Origin: Marinilabiliales bacterium
GTDB taxonomy: Bacteria > Bacteroidota > Bacteroidia > Bacteroidales > PUMT01
Assembly (NCBI GenBank): GCA_007695015.1
Contig: REEN01000044.1
Span: 1-64,000, forward strand
Length of the DNA stretch: 64,000 nucleotides
Direction of reading: 5' to 3'
Shown here: positions 1-37,862 of the stretch, piece by piece
Numbering within the stretch: position 1 is the first letter of the stretch
Layout of the letters: every line of letters starts with the position of its first letter
Position numbers and translations under genes: made by a program
Notes under the pieces: generated by a model
What the model was told of the DNA's origin: nothing
The model's input: only the letters and a program-made list of their open reading frames with translations
Database searches by the model: none

Positions 1-1038
1 GCCTGCTCCCGTTACAGTACCTGTTCCCGGAGGTGATGCCTGCAGGGTCAATGTGTGCAGGATGGTTACATGGAGTATGCTGGGTGGACCTTCACCGCAG
101 TTGTTCACTGCCCTGACCTCTATGTTGCCCGATTCAGCCCCCGAATCGACTGTAACAGCATTGGTCCCCTGTCCTGCTGCAATAGACCAGCCTTCCGGCA
201 CGCTCCAGTTGTAGGTTAATCCCGGACTGGATTCTATTTCATAGCCGAGATTGCCTGAATACTTCATAACAGTTTCAGGCCCTGATATATCCGAGGGCCG
301 GTCCGGTGCCGAGTCAGCCAGGTCAAACAGGTAATCGGTATCCGTTTCAGGTGTGTCGGTAATGACTCCGTAATCAATCTCATAGGAAAAAGGACTTGTA
401 ACGTAGCCCGTGAACCTGAGTTCATCTCCGGGTTCGTAATCGAATCCGGGGGATGACTTGAGGGTGGCCTTTATAGTTGGCGCGGACTCTGCCTGCCCGG
501 TTCTGCCGCTTCGTGACATCCCGTTATATTCTATTCTGGAGGTGGATCTCCCGCCCCTGCCGGATTGTATCATTATCCTCCTCTGACTGTATTTGCCGGA
601 GTTGACAGTAAGAAGGTAGCTCTGCTGGTTGCAGGCATGAAAGGTGAAGTGGTGCATGCCCTGTTCAAGTTTTGCGTCATGAACCACCAGCAGTCTTCCC
701 GACATATCGTGCACATTTATCCTGAAAAGGTCAGGGTCGGGCACGTATATATCTATGTCGGTAACAGCCGAGAAAGGGTTGGGGTAGTTCTGGGAGACAT
801 AGAGTCCGTCATACGCTTCATCAAGCTGATCTATGAATGTAGGGACGATCGTCAGCACCGTGTCGGGATAGTAAAGAGCCCTGGAGCCTTCCCTGGTGAG
901 GTTCTCAACCAGCACGCTGTCAAGCTGTATATAGGTGCATGTATGGTTTGCTGTAAACCTCAGGGTCATGGTGTTCTCTTCAGCCCGAACGGCTGTAATT
1001 GCTATAAAACCTAAAAGCAGAAGGGTAAATGTCCTCAT
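1..1038 (-). CDS. Secreted multidomain protein, FISUMP-protein-like N-terminal part (3' end beyond window)
   Basis: The frame is open from the ATG at 1036-1038 to the left edge (346 codons, no stop), so the C-terminal part is missing. It begins with a signal peptide (MRTFTLLLLGFIAITAVRA). Residues about 72-146 resemble a type IX secretion tail (QNYPNPF, DIDIYVPDPD, HDMSGRLL, YLLTVNSGKY), but near the N terminus instead of the end. Residues about 255-325 look like a PKD-like Ig fold (YNWSVPEGWS, VRAVNNCGEG), and the last visible residues (LTLQASPPGTGTVTGAG) resemble the start of an InlB B-repeat-type module. From memory this layout is common in Bacteroidota proteins that carry a C-terminal FISUMP domain; that domain would lie outside the window, so the assignment is inference. 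A surface or secreted protein is likely; substrate unknown. Confidence 0.72.
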   Translation of the reverse strand, partial: MRTFTLLLLGFIAITAVRAEENTMTLRFTANHTCTYIQLDSVLVENLTREGSRALYYPDTVLTIVPTFIDQLDEAYDGLYVSQNYPNPFSAVTDIDIYVPDPDLFRINVHDMSGRLLVVHDAKLEQGMHHFTFHACNQQSYLLTVNSGKYSQRRIMIQSGRGGRSTSRIEYNGMSRSGRTGQAESAPTIKATLKSSPGFDYEPGDELRFTGYVTSPFSYEIDYGVITDTPETDTDYLFDLADSAPDRPSDISGPETVMKYSGNLGYEIESSPGLTYNWSVPEGWSIAAGQGTNAVTVDSGAESGNIEVRAVNNCGEGPPSILHVTILHTLTLQASPPGTGTVTGAG

Positions 1039-1582: not shown

Positions 1583-3940
1583 ATGACCCGGATAGCACGT
1601 ATATCAATTATTGCAGCAGTGATTCTCACTATACTGGTGCCTGTAAGTGCAACTGCCCAGGGCTATGTCGTGACCGGCACCGTTTCTGATGCCGAAACCG
1701 GTGAAACCCTTGTTGGCGCAACTGTTTTTGTGCCCGATATACAGTTTGGTGTTGTTACCGGCCCGGAAGGGAATTACCGGCTACCCCTGCCTGACGGCCA
1801 ATACAGGGTAATCTTTTCGTTTGTTGGATATGAGAATTATGAGGCAGTGGTCGATCCTCAGATATCCGCGCTTGATGCTGAGCTCCGTGTATCGAGTGTA
1901 AGCCTTGACGAGGTTGTGGTTTCTGCAAGGCAGGCCGACCGTAACGTTGAGCGTGCCGAGATGAGTACCATAGCTGTCAGCATGGAGGCCATACGTAATG
2001 TGCCTGCATTCCTCGGCGAAGTTGATGTGCTGCGTACTATCCAGCTATTGCCCGGAGTGCAGTCGGCCGGCGACGGCAATACAGGTTTTTTTGTCCGCGG
2101 CGGCGATGCCGACCAGAACATGGTTCTGTTTGACAATGCCATGGTATACAACGCATCTCACCTGTTTAACTTCTTCTCGGTATTCAATCCCGATGCAGTT
2201 GCCGATATCCGGCTCTATAAGGGAGGCATACCCCCTTCATACGGCGGAAGGCTTTCGTCGGTGCTGGATGTGGAGATGAGGTCGGGCAGCATGGATGAGT
2301 ACGGTTTTACAGGGGGAATCGGACTGATCTCGAGCAGGATCAGTGCAGAAGGACCAATTCAGGAGGGGAGGAGCAGCTTCCTTGTGGCCGGGAGACGCAC
2401 CTACGCCGATCTTTTTCTCCGGCTTTCGCCGGATGAGAACCAGCGGGATTCGCGGCTGTGGTTCTATGACCTGAACACCCGGATGAACTACGTTGTGAAC
2501 GAACGTAACCGGATCTTCCTCTCCGCTTATCATGGCAAGGACCTGACCGCTTTCAGCGACCTGTTTGGTTTTGACTGGGGCAATAGCACAGGCAGCCTGA
2601 GGTGGAACAGCACATTTTCAGATAACTTTGCCGGTAATTTTTCGCTCCTTTACAGCAATTACCGGTTCAATATAACCGGCGATGTGGGTCCTGCCTCCTT
2701 CAGGTGGCAGTCTGATATCGACAATGTAAACTTAAGGGCCGATTTCAACTACTTTTCTGATACCGGCAGTACTCTCTCATTCGGGGCGGGAACGGTGCTT
2801 CATATGCTTGATCCCGGTACCATCAGGGCTGAGCTGACAGGGGCATCGAGTACCACTGCCGAGCTCACTCCCGGCTATGCGCTGGAACACGGGATTTACA
2901 TCAACAACGAGCAAAGTTTTTTTGACAACAGGCTTCTTGTAGTTTACGGGGTAAGAGGGTCGCTGTTCCAGGTTCTGGGTCCCGGTAAACAGTATGTTTT
3001 TGACAGGTCTGCCCCTCAGGCCTGGGAGGTGGCCGATACCGTCATCCTCGAAAGAGGGAATATCTATGAATCTTTCGGGGGACTGGAGCCCAGGGTGAGC
3101 CTGAGGGTGAGTACAGGGCCCGGCAGTTCGGTAAAGGCGAGCTACAACCGCATGATACAGTATATACAGCAGGCCCAGGGTTCCCAGTCGGTTGCGCCCT
3201 ACGATGTCTGGTACATGAGCAGCAACAATATACCGCCGCAGGTGGCCGACCAGGTGGCGGTCGGGTATTTCAGGAACTTTCTCGGTAACCGGGTAGAGAC
3301 CTCGGTTGAACTCTATTATAAGGATATGTCGGCTATTTCGGATGTTATTGACAATGGTGATATCCTTGGGAACGAGTTGCTCGAGGGACAGCTGAGAGTA
3401 GGTGACGGATGGTCGTACGGGGCCGAGTTCCTGGTTCGGAAGGATGAGGGACGGTTCAGCGGTTTTGCCGGCTACACGTGGTCGCGCACCCGAAGGCAGA
3501 TTGACGGCATCAATGAAGGCAGGCCCTATTATGCACCCAACGACAGGCGGCATGATCTGAGTCTTACCGGAGGGTATTCAATCACCCCGGCCGTGAGTGT
3601 TTCGATGAGTTTTGTTTATGCAACGGGAAGGGCCTTTACGTTGCCGGAAGGGAAGATGTTTTACCAGGGAGCCTTTGCGCCTGTTTACGCTGAGAGGAAC
3701 TCGAGCAGGCTGCCTGCATACCACCGGCTTGACTTGTCGGTTACATACACCCCGCAAAGGCGCGGGTTAAACAGGAGATTCAGCGGCGACTGGAATTTCT
3801 CGGTGTTCAATGTTTACGGGCGAGTAAACCCGATCTCGGTATCTTTTGCCGAAGATGCTGACAGGCCGGGCATACCCAGGTCTTCATTTTTTTATATTCC
3901 CGGCCCTGTGCCGGCGGTAACGTATAACTTCAAATTCTGA
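1583..3940 (+). CDS. TonB-dependent receptor with carboxypeptidase-like regulatory domain
   Basis: A 785-residue outer-membrane receptor. I chose the ATG at 1583 over an in-frame TTG at 1568 because the signal peptide (MTRIARISIIAAVILTILVPVSATAQG) begins there. Residues about 28-92 are a CarboxypepD_reg-like Ig fold (TGTVSDAETGETLVGA, GNYRLPLPDG, FVGYENY). The plug follows at about 145-230 (LLPGVQSAGDG, FFVRGGDADQNMVLFD, PPSYGGRLSSVLDV), then a beta-barrel ending in aromatic TYNFKF, as expected for outer-membrane assembly. There is no SusD partner; the gene 6 nt downstream encodes a DUF4249 lipoprotein, a recurrent companion of this receptor subtype. The imported ligand cannot be told from sequence. 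Confidence 0.9.
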   Translation: MTRIARISIIAAVILTILVPVSATAQGYVVTGTVSDAETGETLVGATVFVPDIQFGVVTGPEGNYRLPLPDGQYRVIFSFVGYENYEAVVDPQISALDAELRVSSVSLDEVVVSARQADRNVERAEMSTIAVSMEAIRNVPAFLGEVDVLRTIQLLPGVQSAGDGNTGFFVRGGDADQNMVLFDNAMVYNASHLFNFFSVFNPDAVADIRLYKGGIPPSYGGRLSSVLDVEMRSGSMDEYGFTGGIGLISSRISAEGPIQEGRSSFLVAGRRTYADLFLRLSPDENQRDSRLWFYDLNTRMNYVVNERNRIFLSAYHGKDLTAFSDLFGFDWGNSTGSLRWNSTFSDNFAGNFSLLYSNYRFNITGDVGPASFRWQSDIDNVNLRADFNYFSDTGSTLSFGAGTVLHMLDPGTIRAELTGASSTTAELTPGYALEHGIYINNEQSFFDNRLLVVYGVRGSLFQVLGPGKQYVFDRSAPQAWEVADTVILERGNIYESFGGLEPRVSLRVSTGPGSSVKASYNRMIQYIQQAQGSQSVAPYDVWYMSSNNIPPQVADQVAVGYFRNFLGNRVETSVELYYKDMSAISDVIDNGDILGNELLEGQLRVGDGWSYGAEFLVRKDEGRFSGFAGYTWSRTRRQIDGINEGRPYYAPNDRRHDLSLTGGYSITPAVSVSMSFVYATGRAFTLPEGKMFYQGAFAPVYAERNSSRLPAYHRLDLSVTYTPQRRGLNRRFSGDWNFSVFNVYGRVNPISVSFAEDADRPGIPRSSFFYIPGPVPAVTYNFKF

Positions 3941-3946
3941 GAAGCG

Positions 3947-4837
3947 ATGTTGAGCAGTACAAATTATCATAAGCAGGCCGGAAAGTTGGTAAGGTGGAGT
4001 ATAACCGGTATTGCAGCCATGATTGTCATTGTTTTTGGGCTTGTATCTTGTGAGAAGGAGGTTATCCTGGAGCTTTCGGACAGGGAGGGGGCCTATCTTA
4101 TAGTTGAGGCAAACATCGACGATGCAACGGCCGAACAGTGGATCCGGCTCAGCCTTTCCAGTTCATATTATGATGTGACGGAAGGTGCAGTTGTAACGGG
4201 AGCTGATGTTATGGTATCTTCAGGTGAAGGGGAGTGGCTATTTACCGGGAAGGGGCCTGACAGCCTGGCCGGATTATATTTCAACAGCGATATCGGCGCC
4301 GAACTTGTCGATGGCAGTTACACTCTTTCTATTGAGCATGAGGGGAACAGATACTCCGCCGTAAGTGAATACAGGGCTGTTCCCGGAATAGATTCTGTCA
4401 CTACAAGGCTCAATTTTTTCTCATCTGCAGGGCTGACCGACGAAAGGCTTTATGATATACTGGTCCATTTTGCCGATCTGCCGGGCAAGGGTGATCACTA
4501 CCTGATCGACGTGACAATCAACGGTAAGCTTCAGACCCCGAGGCCCTCGCAAAAAACCGTTATAAGTGACCAGGACCTGGGCAGCTACGTGTCACGGTCG
4601 GTAAGGACCATTAACGGCAATGACATGCATGCCGGCGATACCATCAGGCTTGACATGAGAAGCATTTCGCGTGAAAAGTACGAGTTCTACCAGATCTTCT
4701 TCTTCCAGACCGACCTTTCGGGCAACCCCTTTGCCGGCGCCCCGCCGGCAAACATACCTACCAACATGAGCGAAGGCGCCAGGGGTTTTTTCCAGGTATC
4801 GGCGGTTTCCAGGGCTCAGACAAGGTTCAGGAAGTGA
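3947..4837 (+). CDS. DUF4249 family outer-membrane lipoprotein
   Basis: A 296-residue protein with a hydrophobic N-terminal segment ending in a lipobox (VFGLVSCEKE; Cys about residue 36), followed directly by typical DUF4249 sequence (LIVEANIDDA, WIRLSLSSSYYDV, GADVMVSSGEGEW) of beta-sandwich character. It starts 6 nt after the TonB receptor stop and is surely co-transcribed. DUF4249 proteins usually pair with receptors like this one and may act as surface partners; the exact role is unknown. Its 3' end overlaps the convergent DUF4105 gene by 11 nt. Confidence 0.85.
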   Translation: MLSSTNYHKQAGKLVRWSITGIAAMIVIVFGLVSCEKEVILELSDREGAYLIVEANIDDATAEQWIRLSLSSSYYDVTEGAVVTGADVMVSSGEGEWLFTGKGPDSLAGLYFNSDIGAELVDGSYTLSIEHEGNRYSAVSEYRAVPGIDSVTTRLNFFSSAGLTDERLYDILVHFADLPGKGDHYLIDVTINGKLQTPRPSQKTVISDQDLGSYVSRSVRTINGNDMHAGDTIRLDMRSISREKYEFYQIFFFQTDLSGNPFAGAPPANIPTNMSEGARGFFQVSAVSRAQTRFRK

Positions 4838-6095
4838 CAGGCTGTTTGGGTGTTCCGCTGCTCTTTTGAACCTGTTTGCTGTTCTTTTGGCCGGCCCCGA
4901 GAATATCGGGTTTGAACATTCTTATTATTACGGCTGACCTGACCACCATGGCCATTACCAGCGGCATTATCACCCAGGGCAGTGGCTGGGGCAGCAGAGG
5001 CCAGGAAAAGATCAGCAGGATGAGAATTACAAGGTTAGCCATGAAGTAATAGTTGATAAGCCTGAAATTCTTTTTCCCCGAAAGGAAAAAGATAATAAAG
5101 AAATGAAGCGGATGGGCCCAGATAATATTCAGGTTCCAGGCGGTTACAGCGTGGTCGGTAAAGAACCAGAGGAAAACGATCAGCAAACCTAAAAGTCCCA
5201 CACTCCCGAAAAGGATCCGGTCGTACCACCATGTGAATTTCTTAGACTGAAGGTTGAAATGGGAGAGGATAATGGTACCCATCAAAACCAATATGAAGAG
5301 CCAGAGGGGTGAATGGCGCAGTAACGCACGGGGCAGCTCCTCACCCTGAAGTATCAGCCTGCTTCCCGGGGTGAACGCAGCCAGGCTTTCACCTGCACGA
5401 AAGTCTGCATGCTCATACAGGGTCATCATATGATCGGGAAGGAACATATAATCCCACGGAGTGGCAGTCTTGTCTGAGGGTAGTCCCAATGCAAGGTTTA
5501 TACCGAGCCTGGCCCAGGGCTTCTCCCTGAGGTAGGGCATCAATAGCTCCCTGAAACTTTGCCCCTTGTCAAGCACATCATAATCGAACACTATCTCCCT
5601 GCTGATGGCTTCGCCAAATACGTCACGTATGCGGGTGGCGCAGTTATCGTAGAAGAAATCATAAAGGTAGTACCGGTTTTCGGGCTGGTAATTGATCAGC
5701 AGTGAATCGAAAAGATATTGCTTTTCGGCCTGGGTAATGTTTAGATCCTGTTCCCATATCCAGCGCTGTTCTCTTCTGTACTCCTGCTCGAAATGCCTGT
5801 ATTCGGATACCGAAAGAATATAGTTCAGCCTGCCTCTGACAAAGTTGGTGTAAAAGTTGGGGTCGGAGAAATCAAAGGTACCGTAATTGAAGACCCAGTC
5901 CAGATCCCGTACAGGATCATTAACCCGTATTGCACTGTGCCCGAATACCGAGTATAGTTCATCTCCCGGGGAACATGTCAGAAGTGAGATCTTTGCCTGG
6001 CTGCTCAGCCTGAACCCCGGCTGTTGCCCATGGCCCGGGGCAGCAGCTGCCAGGCCTATGATTACTGATAAAATGAATGCGAACCTGGTTTGCAT
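4827..6095 (-). CDS. DUF4105 (Lnb N-terminal periplasmic domain) membrane protein
   Basis: A 422-residue protein. The ATG at 6093-6095 directly precedes the signal peptide (MQTRFAFILSVIIGLAAAAPGHG); an upstream TTG would only add a non-hydrophobic extension. Residues about 30-250 match the DUF4105/Lnb periplasmic domain (LLTCSPGDELYSVFGHSAIRV, FNYGTFDF, FYDNCATRIRD with its Cys); this fold is related to papain-like/NlpC enzymes. Four to five hydrophobic segments follow (LWLFILVLMGTIIL, ILFGSVGLLGLLIVFLWFF and others), giving a periplasmic head on a membrane tail. It lies 45 nt downstream of the response regulator on the same strand and may be co-transcribed. Substrate unknown. Confidence 0.82.
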   Translation of the reverse strand: MQTRFAFILSVIIGLAAAAPGHGQQPGFRLSSQAKISLLTCSPGDELYSVFGHSAIRVNDPVRDLDWVFNYGTFDFSDPNFYTNFVRGRLNYILSVSEYRHFEQEYRREQRWIWEQDLNITQAEKQYLFDSLLINYQPENRYYLYDFFYDNCATRIRDVFGEAISREIVFDYDVLDKGQSFRELLMPYLREKPWARLGINLALGLPSDKTATPWDYMFLPDHMMTLYEHADFRAGESLAAFTPGSRLILQGEELPRALLRHSPLWLFILVLMGTIILSHFNLQSKKFTWWYDRILFGSVGLLGLLIVFLWFFTDHAVTAWNLNIIWAHPLHFFIIFFLSGKKNFRLINYYFMANLVILILLIFSWPLLPQPLPWVIMPLVMAMVVRSAVIIRMFKPDILGAGQKNSKQVQKSSGTPKQPVTS

Positions 6096-30416: not shown

Positions 30417-33400
30417 TTGGCTAAGGCATCAAAATATTCCTGCATATCTTTTTGTGTATTGTTGTTATGGGTACTTGTTTCGGCCCCGGGCGCCTCAACC
30501 AGATTTCCAGACGCTGGCTATAATTACGGTGCGGTAACTGACAAGACTGACCCAGGTGATAATTCACCCGGTGAGCTACATATGCCTGAAATATTTCAGG
30601 ATTATTCTGCAGGCCCGTCTTCACGGGGGGAAATACCCATACCTCCCTGGTTCCGTATCACCACAGAATATGATATAGGAACCAACACATACCTTATGAG
30701 GAGGATGGTTGGTGACATCCAGATTGGAAGGCCAAGCATGATGACCTTTGAGGAATACCACAGTTATTCACTTGACAGGGCCATGCAGGATTACTGGCAA
30801 CAGCGATCACGTGGTATTGCCGCGGATGCACGTACAGAATTCATTCCCGGACTCTCCCTGGGTGTTGATGCCATTGATATGATTTTCGGGAGTGATGTGG
30901 TCAATATACAGCCGCAGGGATCGGCCGAACTGATATTCGGTATAAATACCGTTAAAAATGAGCGGCCTGACATACAGGAAGAGCTGAGGAGGGTTACCAC
31001 CTTTGATTTCAGGGAGAAGATACAGATGAATGTTACCGGGAGTATAGGCGACAGGATAAATCTGGGGATCAATTACAACACCGAAGCGATGTTTGAGTTT
31101 GAAAACCAGACCAAACTGGAGTATACCGGCGGCGAGGATGAGATTATCCAAAGGATAGAAGCCGGAAACGTAACCCTGCCTCTGCCTGGTTCACTGATTA
31201 CCGGAAGCCAGAGCCTGTTCGGCCTGAAAAGTGAGCTCAAATTCGGAAATCTTACAGTTACCAGTGTCTTTTCTCAGCAGAAGGGTGAATCGAGGAGCAT
31301 TGAAGTGAGAGGTGGCGCTCAGACGCAGGAGTTTGAGGTGTATGCCGACGATTATGATGCAAACAGGCATTTCTTTCTTTCGCAGTACTTCAGGGATACC
31401 TACGAGGGATCGCTCAGAAATCTGCCCGTTATAAGTTCGGGGATAAACATTACGCGGGTGGAGGTTTGGATAACCAACAAGACAAACAGGTTTGAAGATG
31501 CCCGGAATATTGTGGCTTTTATGGATCTGGCCGAAACTCAGCAGAACATATTCTCGCCGCAGAACTTTTCCCGGGACCCGTCGCAGCAGGGCGATCATCC
31601 GCGCAATGCCCTTAATAACCTCTACGAGATGATGACCACCACCTATTCGGGCATCAGGAACATCAACCAGGTTACTTCGGTCCTTCAGCCGCTGGCCCCC
31701 TCTGGATTTGCAATAGGCCAGGATTATGAGGAGATTGAGAACGCGAGGATGCTTTCACAACGTGAATATACCATAAACAGGAGGCTTGGTTATATCTCGC
31801 TTAACACGGCACTCAATGCCGATGAGGTGCTTGCAGTTGCATTTGAATATACAATGGGCGGGCAGACCTACAGGGTGGGGGAGTTCTCGAATGAAGGGAT
31901 CTCTGCTCCTGATGCGCTTATTGTTAAGATGGTGAAGGGAACCAATCTAACTCCGCGGCTTCCGACCTGGGACCTGATGATGAAGAACGTCTATTCCATT
32001 GGCGCCTGGCAGGTTGACCGCAGGAATTTTGAGCTTAATGTGCTATATCGTGATGACCAGACCGGTAATGCCATAAACTATATTCCCGAGGGTAGGATCC
32101 AGGAGCAGACACTTCTGAGGGTATTGAACCTTGACCAGCTTAACTCACAGCTGGATCCCCATCCCGACGGCATGTTTGACTTTATTGAGGGTGTAACCAT
32201 ATACCCGGAAAACGGGAGGATCGTGTTCCCGGTGCTTGAGCCGTTCGGGTCACACCTGAGAGCAAAGATTGGCGATGATGCTATTGCCGACCGGTATGTT
32301 TTCCAGGAGCTCTACGACTCAACGCTGACAAGGGCAAGGCAGGTTGCCGAGAAGAACAAGTTCATGCTGGCCGGCACCTACCAGTCCTCCGCCGGCTCAG
32401 AGATACCGCTGAATGCCATGAATGTGCCCCGCGGTTCGGTAACGGTCACTGCCGGTGGTGTTCAGCTTACAGAAAATGTGGATTACACTGTTGACTATAC
32501 TCTTGGAAGGGTACAGATAATAAACCAGGGCCTGCTGGAATCGGGCACTCCTATCAGGGTATCACTGGAGAGCCAGTCATTGTTTGCCATACAGACCAAA
32601 ACCCTTGTTGGGTCTCATTTTAATTACCGCATTTCCGATAATTTCAATGTGGGGGCCACAATCCTGAATCTGACGGAACGTCCGCTGACTCAGAAGGTTG
32701 GATTTGGGGATGAGCCGATATCCAATACAATCTGGGGACTGAATACATCTTACCGTACCGAATCGATGTTCCTGACAAACCTGGTAGACAGGCTTCCCTT
32801 CATCAATACCAACCAAATATCCACCATATCTTTTCAGGGTGAATTTGCACATCTCGTTCCCGGTCATTCAAGAGCCATCGGGAGGGACGGTGTTTCATAC
32901 ATAGATGATTTTGAGGCTACCAAAACAACAATAGACCTGAAGACACCCAGTGCATGGTTCATATCCAGCACACCTGACGGACAACCGCTTTTCCCTGAAG
33001 CAGCCCTGAACAACGACCTGGCATATGGCTACAACCGTGCCCTGCTGGCCTGGTATGTAATCGACCCTCTTTTCCTCAGGAATACCTCGGCTACGCCCAC
33101 TCATATAAGGAACAACCCCGATCTGCAGTCCAGCCATTTCGTAAGGGAGGTGTTCGAGCGCGAACTGTTCCCCGAAAGGGAAACCCCCACGGGTATTCCC
33201 ACCAACATACCCGTGCTTAACCTTGCCTACTATCCCAGCCACCGCGGGCCCTACAATTATGATGTCAGTCCGTCGGCATATTCGGCAGGGATCGATGAGG
33301 AAGGGCGGCTTATGGATCCTTCCAGCCGCTGGGGAGGCATCATGAGGGCCCTCCATACGACCGATTTTGAAGCTGCCAATATCGAATACGTTGAATTCTG

Positions 33401-36400
33401 GCTTATGGACCCGTTCATTGAAGATATGGCAGACCACTCGGGGGGCGATTTTTACATAAACCTGGGCAACGTTTCTGAGGATATCCTGAAAGATGGGCGC
33501 AAGAGTTTTGAGAACGGACTGCCTGCCAGCGAGTTGGTAGTAGATGTAGATACCACGGCATGGGGCCGGGTGCCCACACAACAGTCGCTTGTGAACGCTT
33601 TCGACAATAATCCCCAGGCCCGTGAGTTTCAGGATGTCGGACTTGACGGTCTTCGAACGGTAGACGAACGTTCGTTCTTTTTCGATTTCCTTGATGAGAT
33701 AGCCCAGATTTTCGGGGAGGATTCGCCGGCCTTTGAGAGTGCCTGGGAGGATCCTTCGAGCGATAATTACCGCTATTTCAGGGGCAGGGAGTGGGATGCC
33801 ATGGAGGCGGACATCCTTTCCAGGTACATGTACTACAACAATATGGAGGGGAATTCGCCCACCTCTGAGCAGTCGCCCGAATCCTACCCCACCTCTGCAA
33901 CAACCCTCCCGAACACCGAAGATATAAACCGCGACAATACACTTAACCGTTCTGAGGCCTATTTCCAGTACCGGGTCAGTATAAGACCCGGAGATCTGAG
34001 GGTCGGGCATAATTATGTTGTTGACTCGGTGCGCACCACTGTCAATTTCCCAAACGGGGAACAGTCTGCAGTAAACTGGTACCAGTTCAAGATCCCGCTG
34101 TCTGATTTCGAGAATGCGGTTGGTCCGATCCAGGACTTCAAGTCGATCAGGTTCATGAGAATGTTCCTTACCGGGTTTGAAGATCCGGTAGTGATGAGGT
34201 TTGCCAGGCTCGACCTGGTAAGGAGCGACTGGCGTCAGTACAACCTGTCGCTTATGGAAGGGCAGGAGGGGCTGGCTCATCCTGATCCTTCAACGGGGAC
34301 TTTTGATATCTCGGCTGTGAACATTGAGGAGAATGCAAGCAAGACACCCGTTAACTATGTTCTTCCGCCGGGCATTGACAGGGTGATCGATCCCACAAAC
34401 CCGCAGTTGCAGCAGCTCAATGAACAGTCTATGGTGCTGAAGGTTGAGAATCTTGAGGATGGAGATGCAAGGGCGGCATTCAAGAATATGAATCTTGACA
34501 TCAGGCAGTACAGGAGGATACAGATGGAGGTCCACGCTGCCGCGCTGCCGGGCGATCTGCTGAATGATGGCGATCTGACTGTGTTTGTAAGACTGGGAAC
34601 CGACTACAGGAACAACTATTACGAGTATGAGATCCCATTGAGGGTTACCCCTCCCGGCCGGTATAACAACAACCGTGAGAGTGACAGGATAGCAGTATGG
34701 CCCAGGGAAAACCGGCTCGATATTGAGCTTGATATTTTCCAGGAGCTGAAGCAGGAGAGGAACAGGCAGATGCAGGTGCCGGGGTCGGGAATAACCATGT
34801 CATCGGTTTTTATGCGGATGGACGGAGAAAACAGGGTGAGGGTTGTAGGCAACCCTAATCTCAGCAATGTCCGCACCATGATGATCGGGGTAAGGAATCC
34901 CGGCCGCAATACCAATCCCCTTCCGGGGGATGACGGGATGCCTAAGTCGGGAGAGATATGGGTTAATGAGTTGCGCCTCTCACATTTCAACGATGAGGGA
35001 GGGTGGGCTGCTAATGCCCGGGTCACGGCAAGGCTTGCCGACCTGGGGTCGGTTACAGTGGCCGGATCAACAAGCCAACCTGGTTTCGGAAGTATTGAAC
35101 AGAAGGTAAATGAGAGACAGCAGGTACAGGTCAACCAGTATGATGTCTCAACAAATCTGGAGCTGGGCAGGTTCTTCCCTGAAGATTCGGGGGTGCGCAT
35201 ACCGATGTATATTGGCTATTCAGAGGGGTTCATCAACCCCAGGTATAATCCGCTCGACCCTGATGTGCCACTGCAGGATGCTCTTGATCTCGCTGAAACC
35301 CGGAGGGAAAGGGATTCGATAAGGGATATGGCACAGGATTACACCCAGAGAAAGAGCCTTAATTTTACGAATGTGCAGATTGCCAGGGGCGATGGCCCGC
35401 CCAGATTCTACAGCCTGGCCAATTGGTCAATCAACTATGCCTACAGCGAGATGTACGGCAGGAACATCAATACCGATTACCGGCTGCAACGAAATTACAG
35501 GGGGGGGATCAACTACAACTATACTGCTAGTCCCCAAAACGTCACCCCGTTCAGCAACTGGGGAATATTAAGCTCCCCTGCGCTCAGGATACTGAGGGAC
35601 TTTAATTTCTACTATGCACCTTCATACATCTCTTTCAGGACAGACCTTAACAGGCATTACCATGCAAGACAGCTCAGAAATATTAACAATCCTGATTTCC
35701 TCATCCTGCCGACATATCAGAAGGACTTCCTCTGGAACAGGTTCTATGATATGCGGTTTGACATCACCAGGCAGTTACGTTTTGAGTTCTCGGCAACCAA
35801 TACAGCCCGTATAGATGAACCCGAGGGAATAGTTGACCGTTACAGGGATCCTGATGGTTACAGGGGATGGAGGGACTCTGTCATGATCAACCTCCAGAAC
35901 CTGGGACGCACCACCCAGTACTTCCACTCGGCCAATCTCACCTATACATTGCCTCTTAACAAGATACCGTTTTTTAACTGGGTAAATGTTACTGCCCGGT
36001 ACAATGCATCCTACGGGTGGGATACCGGACTTATTCTGCCGGATTCTCTTGGCATAAACCTTGGCAATGTAATAAGGAACAGTAATACAAGTCAGTTGAA
36101 CGCTCAGTTCAACCTTCTTAACCTGTACAACAAGGTTGATTATTTTCAGCGGGTTAACCAGAGAACCAGGCAGATGCAGGCTGCCACGGGCAGGCAGCAG
36201 GAGCAGCCGCAGCCTGAGTTCAGGAAGGTGTGGTATGAACGGGCCAATGTGAACCTTACCGCGAACAGGCCGCAAAACATTATTCACAATCTGAACACCG
36301 AAGAGGTCTCCGTAAGGATTCAGGATGCCCAGGGAAGACCGGTCAGGGGCAGCACCGATATTATCAATGAGAGGAGGGCCGTATTTACTCCCGAAACTGA

Positions 36401-37862
36401 TGTTGAAGGAGCTACCATACTTGTTGAAGGCACTGTTGAGGTGAGGGAATCGATATTCACCAAAATTGCCGAGCACGCTTCAAGGCTGCTCATGTCGGTC
36501 CAGAACATAGGCATATCCTATTCACATACAGACGGCACAGTATTGCATGGATACCTGCCTGGCACCGACATACTGGGAACCCGCGGTTTTGATGACCATA
36601 TTGCTCCCGGGATCCCGTTCATACTGGGCTACCAGGATCCTGAATTTGCCTGGCAGGCAGTCCGCCGCGGGTGGATGACCACCGACACCACCCTGAATGA
36701 GCCCTTTTTGATGAGCCACAGCAATACCTTTAACCTCAGAAGCACGATTGAGCCCATTCCGGGTTTCAGGATAGATCTTACTGCAAGCCGTACTTTTGTC
36801 GAAAATATGCAGGAGTATTATTATGCCGACAGGCACGGTACTTTTTATGCCAGCAATAAATTTAATTCGGGGAACTTCAATATTTCATTTCTGTCACTGG
36901 GAACAGCTTTTGAAAAACCTTCGGGCGACAATGCTTATGCTTCGGAGGCTTATGAGGATTTTCAAAGGTACAGGCGTGTGATAGCCATGAGGTTTGCAGA
37001 GCAGAGAGGGTACTCAGACATGTATGACCCGGGACTTATTGATGAGGAAGGTTTCCCGGATGGTTACGGAAGCCTTTCACAGGATGTGCTTTTACCTGCA
37101 TTCCTGGCTGCCTACGGTAAAATTGATCCGATGAATGTGTCACTCAAAACTTTCCCGTTGATACCCATGCCTAACTGGAGAATTGTGTATGACGGACTTG
37201 CGCGTGCCCCCCTTCTGAACCTTATCATGCAATCGGCCAGCATAAACCATGTTTACAGGTCAACCTACAGTATCTCAAATTATGTGACCAACCTGAACTA
37301 TCTGGAGGGGGAAGACGGCTTTGGAATAATAAGGGACAAGGTGAGGGGATATTTTGTTCCCGAACATGACATTTCTTCGGTTGCAATAAGTGAGAGGTTT
37401 GATCCTCTTATTAATATAGATGTAACATGGAACAACAATTTCACCTCCAGGGCGGCTCTGAGAAAATCGAGGACGGTTACACTGAGCCTTGCAAACAACC
37501 AGATTTCTGAGCTTAAAAGTGACGAAGTGGTCATGGGGATCGGTTACAGGTTCAGGGATGTGCAGATAGCTTACAGGACGGGTGGTGTCCAGAGGGAACT
37601 GAGGAGCGACCTCAACCTGCGGGCCGATCTCTCCATAAGGGAGAATATGACCATAGTTCGGAGGTTGGCCGAAGACGGAGTTCAGCCCACTGCCGGCCAG
37701 ACTGTTATATCTCTCAACGCTTCTGCCGACTATGTCATAAGCAACCGGTTTGATGTAAGGCTCTTTTTAGACCGTGTAATAAACCGTCCCATTGTAAGTT
37801 TGTCATTTCCCACAACCAATACCAGCTTTGGTTTCAGTCTGCGCTTTACTCTTATACCATAA
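30417..37862 (+). CDS. sprA: Cell-surface protein SprA, type IX secretion translocon
   Basis: A 2481-residue giant outer-membrane barrel that forms the protein-conducting channel of the type IX system. The only start placing a signal peptide at the N terminus is a TTG at 30417 (MAKASKYSCISFCVLLLWVLVSA...); the upstream frame closes at the ruvA stop. Family landmarks include the N-terminal PPWFRITTEYDIGTNTYLMRR, repeated barrel and plug-like stretches (INLGINYNTEAMFEFENQ, SYIDDFEATKTTIDLKTPSAW, SGEIWVNELRLSHF) and the C-terminal SFPTTNTSFGFSLRFTLIP. Length fits SprA (about 2,400). The frame is uninterrupted over 7.4 kb. It may depend on ruvA transcription. Confidence 0.95.
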   Translation: MAKASKYSCISFCVLLLWVLVSAPGASTRFPDAGYNYGAVTDKTDPGDNSPGELHMPEIFQDYSAGPSSRGEIPIPPWFRITTEYDIGTNTYLMRRMVGDIQIGRPSMMTFEEYHSYSLDRAMQDYWQQRSRGIAADARTEFIPGLSLGVDAIDMIFGSDVVNIQPQGSAELIFGINTVKNERPDIQEELRRVTTFDFREKIQMNVTGSIGDRINLGINYNTEAMFEFENQTKLEYTGGEDEIIQRIEAGNVTLPLPGSLITGSQSLFGLKSELKFGNLTVTSVFSQQKGESRSIEVRGGAQTQEFEVYADDYDANRHFFLSQYFRDTYEGSLRNLPVISSGINITRVEVWITNKTNRFEDARNIVAFMDLAETQQNIFSPQNFSRDPSQQGDHPRNALNNLYEMMTTTYSGIRNINQVTSVLQPLAPSGFAIGQDYEEIENARMLSQREYTINRRLGYISLNTALNADEVLAVAFEYTMGGQTYRVGEFSNEGISAPDALIVKMVKGTNLTPRLPTWDLMMKNVYSIGAWQVDRRNFELNVLYRDDQTGNAINYIPEGRIQEQTLLRVLNLDQLNSQLDPHPDGMFDFIEGVTIYPENGRIVFPVLEPFGSHLRAKIGDDAIADRYVFQELYDSTLTRARQVAEKNKFMLAGTYQSSAGSEIPLNAMNVPRGSVTVTAGGVQLTENVDYTVDYTLGRVQIINQGLLESGTPIRVSLESQSLFAIQTKTLVGSHFNYRISDNFNVGATILNLTERPLTQKVGFGDEPISNTIWGLNTSYRTESMFLTNLVDRLPFINTNQISTISFQGEFAHLVPGHSRAIGRDGVSYIDDFEATKTTIDLKTPSAWFISSTPDGQPLFPEAALNNDLAYGYNRALLAWYVIDPLFLRNTSATPTHIRNNPDLQSSHFVREVFERELFPERETPTGIPTNIPVLNLAYYPSHRGPYNYDVSPSAYSAGIDEEGRLMDPSSRWGGIMRALHTTDFEAANIEYVEFWLMDPFIEDMADHSGGDFYINLGNVSEDILKDGRKSFENGLPASELVVDVDTTAWGRVPTQQSLVNAFDNNPQAREFQDVGLDGLRTVDERSFFFDFLDEIAQIFGEDSPAFESAWEDPSSDNYRYFRGREWDAMEADILSRYMYYNNMEGNSPTSEQSPESYPTSATTLPNTEDINRDNTLNRSEAYFQYRVSIRPGDLRVGHNYVVDSVRTTVNFPNGEQSAVNWYQFKIPLSDFENAVGPIQDFKSIRFMRMFLTGFEDPVVMRFARLDLVRSDWRQYNLSLMEGQEGLAHPDPSTGTFDISAVNIEENASKTPVNYVLPPGIDRVIDPTNPQLQQLNEQSMVLKVENLEDGDARAAFKNMNLDIRQYRRIQMEVHAAALPGDLLNDGDLTVFVRLGTDYRNNYYEYEIPLRVTPPGRYNNNRESDRIAVWPRENRLDIELDIFQELKQERNRQMQVPGSGITMSSVFMRMDGENRVRVVGNPNLSNVRTMMIGVRNPGRNTNPLPGDDGMPKSGEIWVNELRLSHFNDEGGWAANARVTARLADLGSVTVAGSTSQPGFGSIEQKVNERQQVQVNQYDVSTNLELGRFFPEDSGVRIPMYIGYSEGFINPRYNPLDPDVPLQDALDLAETRRERDSIRDMAQDYTQRKSLNFTNVQIARGDGPPRFYSLANWSINYAYSEMYGRNINTDYRLQRNYRGGINYNYTASPQNVTPFSNWGILSSPALRILRDFNFYYAPSYISFRTDLNRHYHARQLRNINNPDFLILPTYQKDFLWNRFYDMRFDITRQLRFEFSATNTARIDEPEGIVDRYRDPDGYRGWRDSVMINLQNLGRTTQYFHSANLTYTLPLNKIPFFNWVNVTARYNASYGWDTGLILPDSLGINLGNVIRNSNTSQLNAQFNLLNLYNKVDYFQRVNQRTRQMQAATGRQQEQPQPEFRKVWYERANVNLTANRPQNIIHNLNTEEVSVRIQDAQGRPVRGSTDIINERRAVFTPETDVEGATILVEGTVEVRESIFTKIAEHASRLLMSVQNIGISYSHTDGTVLHGYLPGTDILGTRGFDDHIAPGIPFILGYQDPEFAWQAVRRGWMTTDTTLNEPFLMSHSNTFNLRSTIEPIPGFRIDLTASRTFVENMQEYYYADRHGTFYASNKFNSGNFNISFLSLGTAFEKPSGDNAYASEAYEDFQRYRRVIAMRFAEQRGYSDMYDPGLIDEEGFPDGYGSLSQDVLLPAFLAAYGKIDPMNVSLKTFPLIPMPNWRIVYDGLARAPLLNLIMQSASINHVYRSTYSISNYVTNLNYLEGEDGFGIIRDKVRGYFVPEHDISSVAISERFDPLINIDVTWNNNFTSRAALRKSRTVTLSLANNQISELKSDEVVMGIGYRFRDVQIAYRTGGVQRELRSDLNLRADLSIRENMTIVRRLAEDGVQPTAGQTVISLNASADYVISNRFDVRLFLDRVINRPIVSLSFPTTNTSFGFSLRFTLIP

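Follow-up and report, generated by a model that had tools for sequence, protein, structure and literature searches.

The type IX secretion system recognises its cargo by a domain that forms the extreme C-terminal part of the chain. The published signals are reported to need their last residues and the lysines of motif E (PMC4804311, PMC10202324), and at least one list of cargo compiled recently was restricted to C-terminal hits (PMC11969387). In another report, the conserved motifs of the tail are described as mostly determining its fold, except for a near-invariant lysine that touches PorV, and the contacts with the translocon are said to be made chiefly through the hydrophobic surface of the CTD (PMC10994853). 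In the titles and abstract beginnings of open-licence PMC articles, we found no report of an internal or N-terminal type A tail. Here we describe a tail-like module of this kind that lies close to the N terminus of a putative secreted protein, encoded at the start of the window (the whole stretch of 64,000 nucleotides from a Marinilabiliales bacterium that was analysed).

The gene (1..1038, minus strand) begins with an ATG at position 1038 and runs to the window start over 346 amino acids without a stop; the contig itself physically ends at this point (G000:C44:1), and the ORF is therefore cut, leaving only the N-terminal 346 residues. The protein opens with a predicted signal peptide of the signal peptidase I type that lacks a lipobox (residues 1-19; 982..1038, minus strand; assigned by eye), and this region was modelled by AlphaFold2 as a helix at residues 2-15. 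It is followed by the first half of a beta domain, hereafter the host (residues 21-68; 835..978, minus strand; host profile positions 3-50, 40.2 bits, E 2e-11), and by the type IX tail-like module of predicted Ig fold (residues 83-158; 565..792, minus strand; AlphaFold2 block pLDDT about 81-98). After a second linker predicted to be disordered (residues 178-197; 448..507, minus strand; pLDDT <50 at model residues 160-179) comes the second half of the host (residues 191-243; 310..468, minus strand), whose profile match overlaps the end of the linker and is weak when taken alone (host profile 42-88, 12.6 bits, E 8e-3), with pLDDT of 90-95 at model residues 181-220. The remainder consists of a PKD_6 domain (residues 245-324; 67..306, minus strand; PF19408, 75.5 bits) and the putative start of an InlB-type (Flg_new_2-like) repeat (residues 328-346; 1..57, minus strand). 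The latter was assigned by resemblance to relatives, given that PF18998 stands directly after PKD_6 in L081 and alike repeats are present in G000:C52. These elements agree with the first-pass annotation, in which PKD-like and repeat modules had been noted behind a tail-like stretch of a secreted protein. The first 1100 bases of the window had no other match in the rest of its own genome, and no link to the window gene was found for the contig ends that carry a partial FISUMP (C28, C6).

The same annotation had taken residues about 72-146 for a type IX sorting tail and had suggested a comparison with type A tails by HMM. The likeness stands, since the module matches TIGR04183 with 26.8 bits (E 3.9e-6), which passes the curated cut-off of 23, and the lack of any profile similarity that would have spoken against the claim was not observed; the range proved to be shifted, as the module actually extends from residue 83 or 85 to 158, about 12 residues later. 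With PF18962 the score was 20.0 bits (E 8.3e-4), below the Pfam gathering cut-off of 27. When the family members were scanned singly, 39/40 were matched by TIGR04183 and 34/40 by PF18962 (E <= 0.01). Motif B (PNP), at residues 86-88 of the window protein, is kept in 40/40 internal modules of the FISUMP type, and it is also present in every row of the five compared groups (26, 31, 37, 3 and 4 rows). The glycine of motif C is likewise found in all 40. A different picture emerged for motif D (GxY), where the window has Q two residues before the Tyr: glycine occupies this position in 1/40 internal modules against 25/26 C-terminal tails of the same genome and 31/31 of the phylum, the phylum tails having been found with the internal-module profile, which biases that sample towards likeness. 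A cruder count, with GxY accepted anywhere in the module, gave 11/40. At the motif E column, K stands in 27, R in 7 and other residues in 6 of the 40 internal modules; the window has I, and the window together with its two nearest relatives reads I, I, L. Two arginines directly precede this column in the window module, so that a shift of one residue in the alignment would place a basic residue there. For comparison, the last 8 residues of the own-genome C-terminal tails include K in 17/26 cases and K or R in 26/26.

In summary, the window module shares with the T9SS type A sorting domain the sequence profile, PNP, the D..G motif and a predicted Ig-like beta sandwich, which AlphaFold2 models as six strands over residues 92-158 with a block pLDDT >90, plus short preceding bridges. 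It differs from that terminal domain in being internal and nested, with about 188-189 residues after it before the contig end, in having lost the motif D glycine and, in the window subfamily, in a motif E column that is not basic as aligned. This motif state favours, though not strongly, a structural function over export, because the motif D glycine is lost and, less firmly, because the motif E lysine is missing in the window.

Regarding its surroundings, the tail-like module sits in a loop of a host beta domain of ~95 residues that adjoins the signal peptide. Eight of the tailed proteins carry, further downstream, one or two additional copies of this host without a tail, nine in total, and in 7/9 of these uninterrupted copies the FISUMP domain begins ~100 residues after the copy. 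These nine copies served to build the host profile, so that their own match to it is by construction. When the profile was compared with 63 distinct tailed proteins, the window included, 42 were split near profile positions 47/48 with the tail in between, of which at least 5 (L134, L061, L062, L218, L087) have a loose second border that starts at profile 13-24. The window is among this first-site group, with the weak second half mentioned above. In 7/63 the insertion lies at a second site near 66/67; in 13/63 only the first host piece was found, and 1/63 was unclear. L050 and L053, the two nearest relatives of the window protein, yielded no second half with the host profile. In the printed host-profile matches, each protein has one tail, always in the copy that adjoins the signal peptide. 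The seven second-site rows (L156, L172, L174, L179, L185, L186 and L091, from G182, G057 and G263) are set apart by a single branch (SH-aLRT 94) of a tree in which first-site was the default label for the other 68 rows. As they group together, the module seems to have moved once between loops of the same host.

The models are compatible with this arrangement. For residues 1-173 (40 sequences), AlphaFold2 gave a pLDDT >90 for the block of residues 91-160 and about 53-84 for the first host half; for residues 19-245 (38 sequences), both host halves reached about 79-95, the tail was high and both linkers were low. Because the pLDDT of the first half rises once the second half is included, the two halves are predicted to fold together, bearing in mind that the two models rest on slightly different alignments. 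A resemblance by eye led us to consider CarboxypepD_reg as the identity of the FISUMP-type host; this assignment was discarded, since no Pfam match was obtained in 11 members and the hhalign probability was 0.3%, with small alignments.

Sixty-two relatives from many genomes share the layout of the window protein. The search in 393 genomes of the order Bacteroidales gave a match at E <= 1e-6 in 155, plain C-terminal tails included, and a hand count of the matches listed revealed a near full-length module in at least 48 genomes. The usual relative consists of a signal peptide, a short beta segment, the tail-like module, ~85 residues, and a FISUMP domain that runs to the C terminus, as the first-pass annotation had expected for the missing end; some relatives end in other domains, e.g. 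Lcl_C in L084 and L099. By its signal peptide, split host and tail, which it shares with FISUMP proteins (Fib_succ_major, PF09603/TIGR02145) of Bacteroidales, the window protein groups with the FISUMP family that has an internal tail. Its nearest relatives, unlike the usual FISUMP proteins, have PKD_6 after the module. The nearest long one, L081 (G152), which is cut by its contig, carries PKD_6, Flg_new_2 in two stretches and DUF5689, and matches Fib_succ_major weakly (19 bits, with a cut-off of 33.9); the closest complete relative with PKD_6, L083, has 766 aa and lacks a C-terminal tail. A first scan for named organisms gave no match; a second one, with a member from G091, retrieved nine loci, all from uncultured Bacteroidia or Bacteroidales assemblies, most of them with ruminant-linked titles or isolate codes.

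In the genome of the window, 30 places match PF18962 (E <= 0.1); 28 of them end <=17 residues from the stop, the partial match L037 stops 49 residues short of it, and that of the window protein is the only internal one. Over 392 genomes of the phylum, the family profile had matches at E <= 1e-12 in 207, and those listed almost always covered the tail part only; plain C-terminal tails of other classes are found with E about 1e-20. Among the 29 fetched phylum loci outside the window's own, 25 have a tail that reaches to within 1-3 residues of the stop. The tree of tails comprises 101 rows, among them the phylum tails biased towards likeness; in it, the 40 internal modules of the FISUMP type lie on one side of a branch with support 97/90; all internal modules, those of the M19 type described below included, also lie on one side, there unsupported (53/66). 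The FISUMP-type modules therefore most likely have a single origin, in one old capture of a true relative of the type A tail. The first-pass annotation had proposed the fusion of a once terminal domain, and the single clade fits that part of the proposal, whereas the event itself appears to have been an insertion into a loop and not an end-to-end fusion.

A second family with an internal tail was found in other classes of the phylum. In three of the 29 fetched phylum loci (L103, L104 and L117, from G550, G637 and G453), the tail ends 377-384 residues before the stop, and L101 seems to have the same layout, although cut by its contig. The domains of L103 and L117 are half a CarboxypepD_reg, Por_Secre_tail and then Peptidase_M19, and L104 reads alike. 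The tails pass the Pfam cut-off in the two that were scanned (L103 and L117; 38.5 and 30.6 bits), and the motif D glycine and the Lys are kept in 4/4 tails of this type. In the native proteins L103 and L117, CarboxypepD_reg is matched over profile positions 1-43 or 2-44 of 82 (24.2 and 32.2 bits). With the tail left out, the scores of L103, L104 and L117 were 37.7, 39.2 and 37.7 bits, with the profile reaching 72-74 of 82 and the cut-off of 32.3 passed; in a control in which the second half was reversed in one M19 protein, 25.1 bits over 1-43 were obtained. As CarboxypepD_reg becomes whole once the tail is removed, the tail appears to be inserted in these proteins too. Judging from these profiles, the M19 dipeptidases thus carry a better-preserved type A tail nested in CarboxypepD_reg behind a signal peptide, and their intact motifs leave export open for this family. 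Like the family of the window protein, they have a signal peptide, a tail within a beta domain and no C-terminal tail; they differ in their CarboxypepD_reg host, to which the FISUMP-type host has no detectable relation, in their enzyme cargo and in their intact motifs. A short protein, L112 (G421:C19), consists of a signal peptide, half of a domain that by eye resembles CarboxypepD_reg and, at the end of the chain, a tail; it may be an intermediate or a truncated relative.

As regards the export route, the genome of the window possesses type IX machinery, judging by the translocon gene sprA (30654..37853, plus strand; TIGR04189, 2767 bits) on the same contig as the tail-like module. To relate internal tails to other export features, we relied on a census of eight genomes and the window's own, which took in 143/144 FISUMP places and 12/14 own-genome places and comprised 126 distinct FISUMP ORFs, including some fragments; since its rows are related, the p values are only guides. 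Thirty-six ORFs have an internal tail and 90 do not. A C-terminal tail was found in 0/36 of the former over the nine genomes, one ORF being cut before its end, and in 4/90 of the latter, a difference that is not significant (p 0.58). A lipobox was detected in 4/33 internally tailed ORFs vs 31/77 without an internal tail (p 0.004) by a crude regex that misreads some rows both ways; with the doubtful cases dropped (four, plus one in the other group), the counts became 0/33 vs 30/77 (p 3e-6). Furthermore, up to 42 FISUMP ORFs have a start of the signal peptidase I type and no recognised tail, although several of them are fragments or misread lipoproteins; given that such ORFs exist, the missing C-terminal tail alone demands no internal signal.

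A comparison of genomes with and without SprA hardly discriminates, since SprA was found in 371/393 Bacteroidales genomes, and it is confounded by kinship. All 48 listed genomes with a near full-length module are SprA-positive, and no full-length module appeared among the matches listed for the 20 SprA-negative genomes listed (of 22). Family-profile matches at E <= 1e-4 were present in 4/20 of these (G113, G134, G227 and G247; best 3.4e-15), and those listed for G227 and G247 are confined to the tail. FISUMP occurs in 11/20 of the SprA-negative genomes listed, from which 23 distinct ORFs were fetched; none of them has an internal tail and 20/23 are lipoprotein-like by eye. One of these ORFs, L263 (G134), resembles the first half of the host at E 0.84 and lacks the tail.

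Another observation on the FISUMP genes concerns L131 (G204:C25:191146-196505), where an apparently complete diversity-generating retroelement lies beside a FISUMP lipoprotein gene. Its parts are a variable repeat (2745-2944), a small accessory-like ORF (3003-3344), a template repeat (3486-3685) and an ORF that looks by eye like a reverse transcriptase (4031-5197). The template and variable repeats are 84% identical over 200 bases, and 31/32 mismatches fall on A. When 12 other FISUMP loci of G204 were compared with the template, the mismatches were A-biased in three (L143 33/51, L146 36/46, L147 37/45); the two internally tailed loci among the 12 gave no clear result (L166 43/89, L204 41/80).

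Taking these results together, we hold with moderate confidence that the window protein contains a type A tail domain that was captured once, is nested in a loop of the host and now acts as an Ig-like spacer or docking domain. The tail would have been captured long ago, in an ancestral secreted protein of Bacteroidales, into a loop of the host domain behind the signal peptide, and the module would then have spread with the family, whose members mostly display a C-terminal FISUMP. The polypeptide would enter the periplasm by Sec, and the host halves, folded together as the models predict, would let the tail-like Ig domain protrude on a pair of flexible linkers. Having ceased to be a sorting signal, the window module would most likely serve as a folded spacer or docking domain, a function suggested by the absence of a free C terminus, of the motif D glycine and of a lysine at the aligned motif E position. 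Several observations stand against a spacer: K or R is kept at the motif E column in 34/40 modules, an export signal could equally take the form of one tail per protein next to the signal peptide, full-length modules are confined to SprA-positive genomes among the matches listed, and the second half of the host scores weakly in the window and went undetected in 13/63 proteins, L050 and L053 included. Alternatively, the nested module would still be a type IX targeting domain, with its surface docking PorV inside the SprA translocon and the linkers letting the rest of the chain follow, an explanation that we regard as possible and yet rather unlikely. In its favour are, besides the K or R at the motif E column and the single tail next to the signal peptide, the disordered linkers on either side, the lack of a C-terminal tail in the 36 internally tailed FISUMP ORFs, the rarity of the lipobox among them (all four cases being doubtful by eye), the absence of internal tails in the 23 FISUMP ORFs of SprA-negative genomes, 20 of them lipoprotein-like by eye, the well-preserved M19-type tails, and the prominence of the hydrophobic CTD surface in translocon contacts, as stated in PMC10994853. 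It is opposed by the need of the signals for their last residues and motif E lysines, as reported in PMC4804311 and PMC10202324, by the disappearance of the motif D glycine from 39/40 modules, by the up to 42 tail-less FISUMP ORFs with a signal peptidase I type start and by the kinship that confounds the SprA comparison. Only tentatively, then, could some Bacteroidota proteins be credited with a working mid-chain type IX targeting domain, of which the M19 dipeptidases would be the best candidate and the window copy a diverged member.

Three other explanations appear less probable than the captured spacer or docking domain. It is improbable that the window protein has both the internal module and an ordinary C-terminal tail, past the contig end, that drives export. 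The window ORF is cut where a Flg_new_2-like repeat begins, and a 5'-open ORF at another contig end of the same genome (G000:C118:1-804) has Flg_new_2 repeats that end in a real C-terminal type IX tail; however, the repeats of C118 are worded differently from those of the window, which makes it a possible but unsupported partner, and a C-terminal tail was found in none of the extracted complete proteins with the full N-terminal module, L083 among them (L051 and L052, ordinary C-terminal tails without the N-terminal module, are no counter-examples). Very improbable is a likeness due only to the common Ig-like fold and not to homology. In the structure searches, which were also meant to identify the host fold but whose lists are filled by the Ig domain of the tail module, the top rows were unrelated Ig/FN3-type domains of similar Z, Foldseek with the module models gave no match at E <1e-3, and a PDB sequence search with the family profile reached the type IX tail 8glj at E 0.63 only; with lists so full of generic domains, the fold fits and does not discriminate. 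On the other hand, type IX proteins are among the structural matches (PorU 6za2, Z 8.9, rmsd 2.7 over 85; the C-terminal domain of mirolase 8qb1, Z 8.5, rmsd 2.1 over 75; NucA 8glk and RemA 8gl6), the matches to the type A tail profiles are specific at the sequence level, and PNP and the motif C glycine are kept throughout the 40 modules. Finally, an assembly error or a chance gene fusion, which the first-pass annotation had raised and the position at a contig end might suggest, is hardly credible: the same layout is present in G152, in dozens of other assemblies and in G013, of the same genus, whose protein is 49% identical over 173 residues (1-173) and also ends at a contig end, and its recurrence in independent genomes refutes the error.

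The existence of a large family with a nested, near-N-terminal tail, and of a second one with intact motifs, makes it testable whether the tail must be terminal. What is new here is the nesting of the module in a loop of the host domain, that is, a sorting domain apparently captured into, and shifted within, another domain. In practice, TIGR04183 ('T9SS type A sorting domain-containing protein') would label such proteins as type IX cargo, possibly wrongly. If, on the contrary, the nested module were a true targeting domain, these Bacteroidota would export proteins by the type IX route without a free C-terminal tail.
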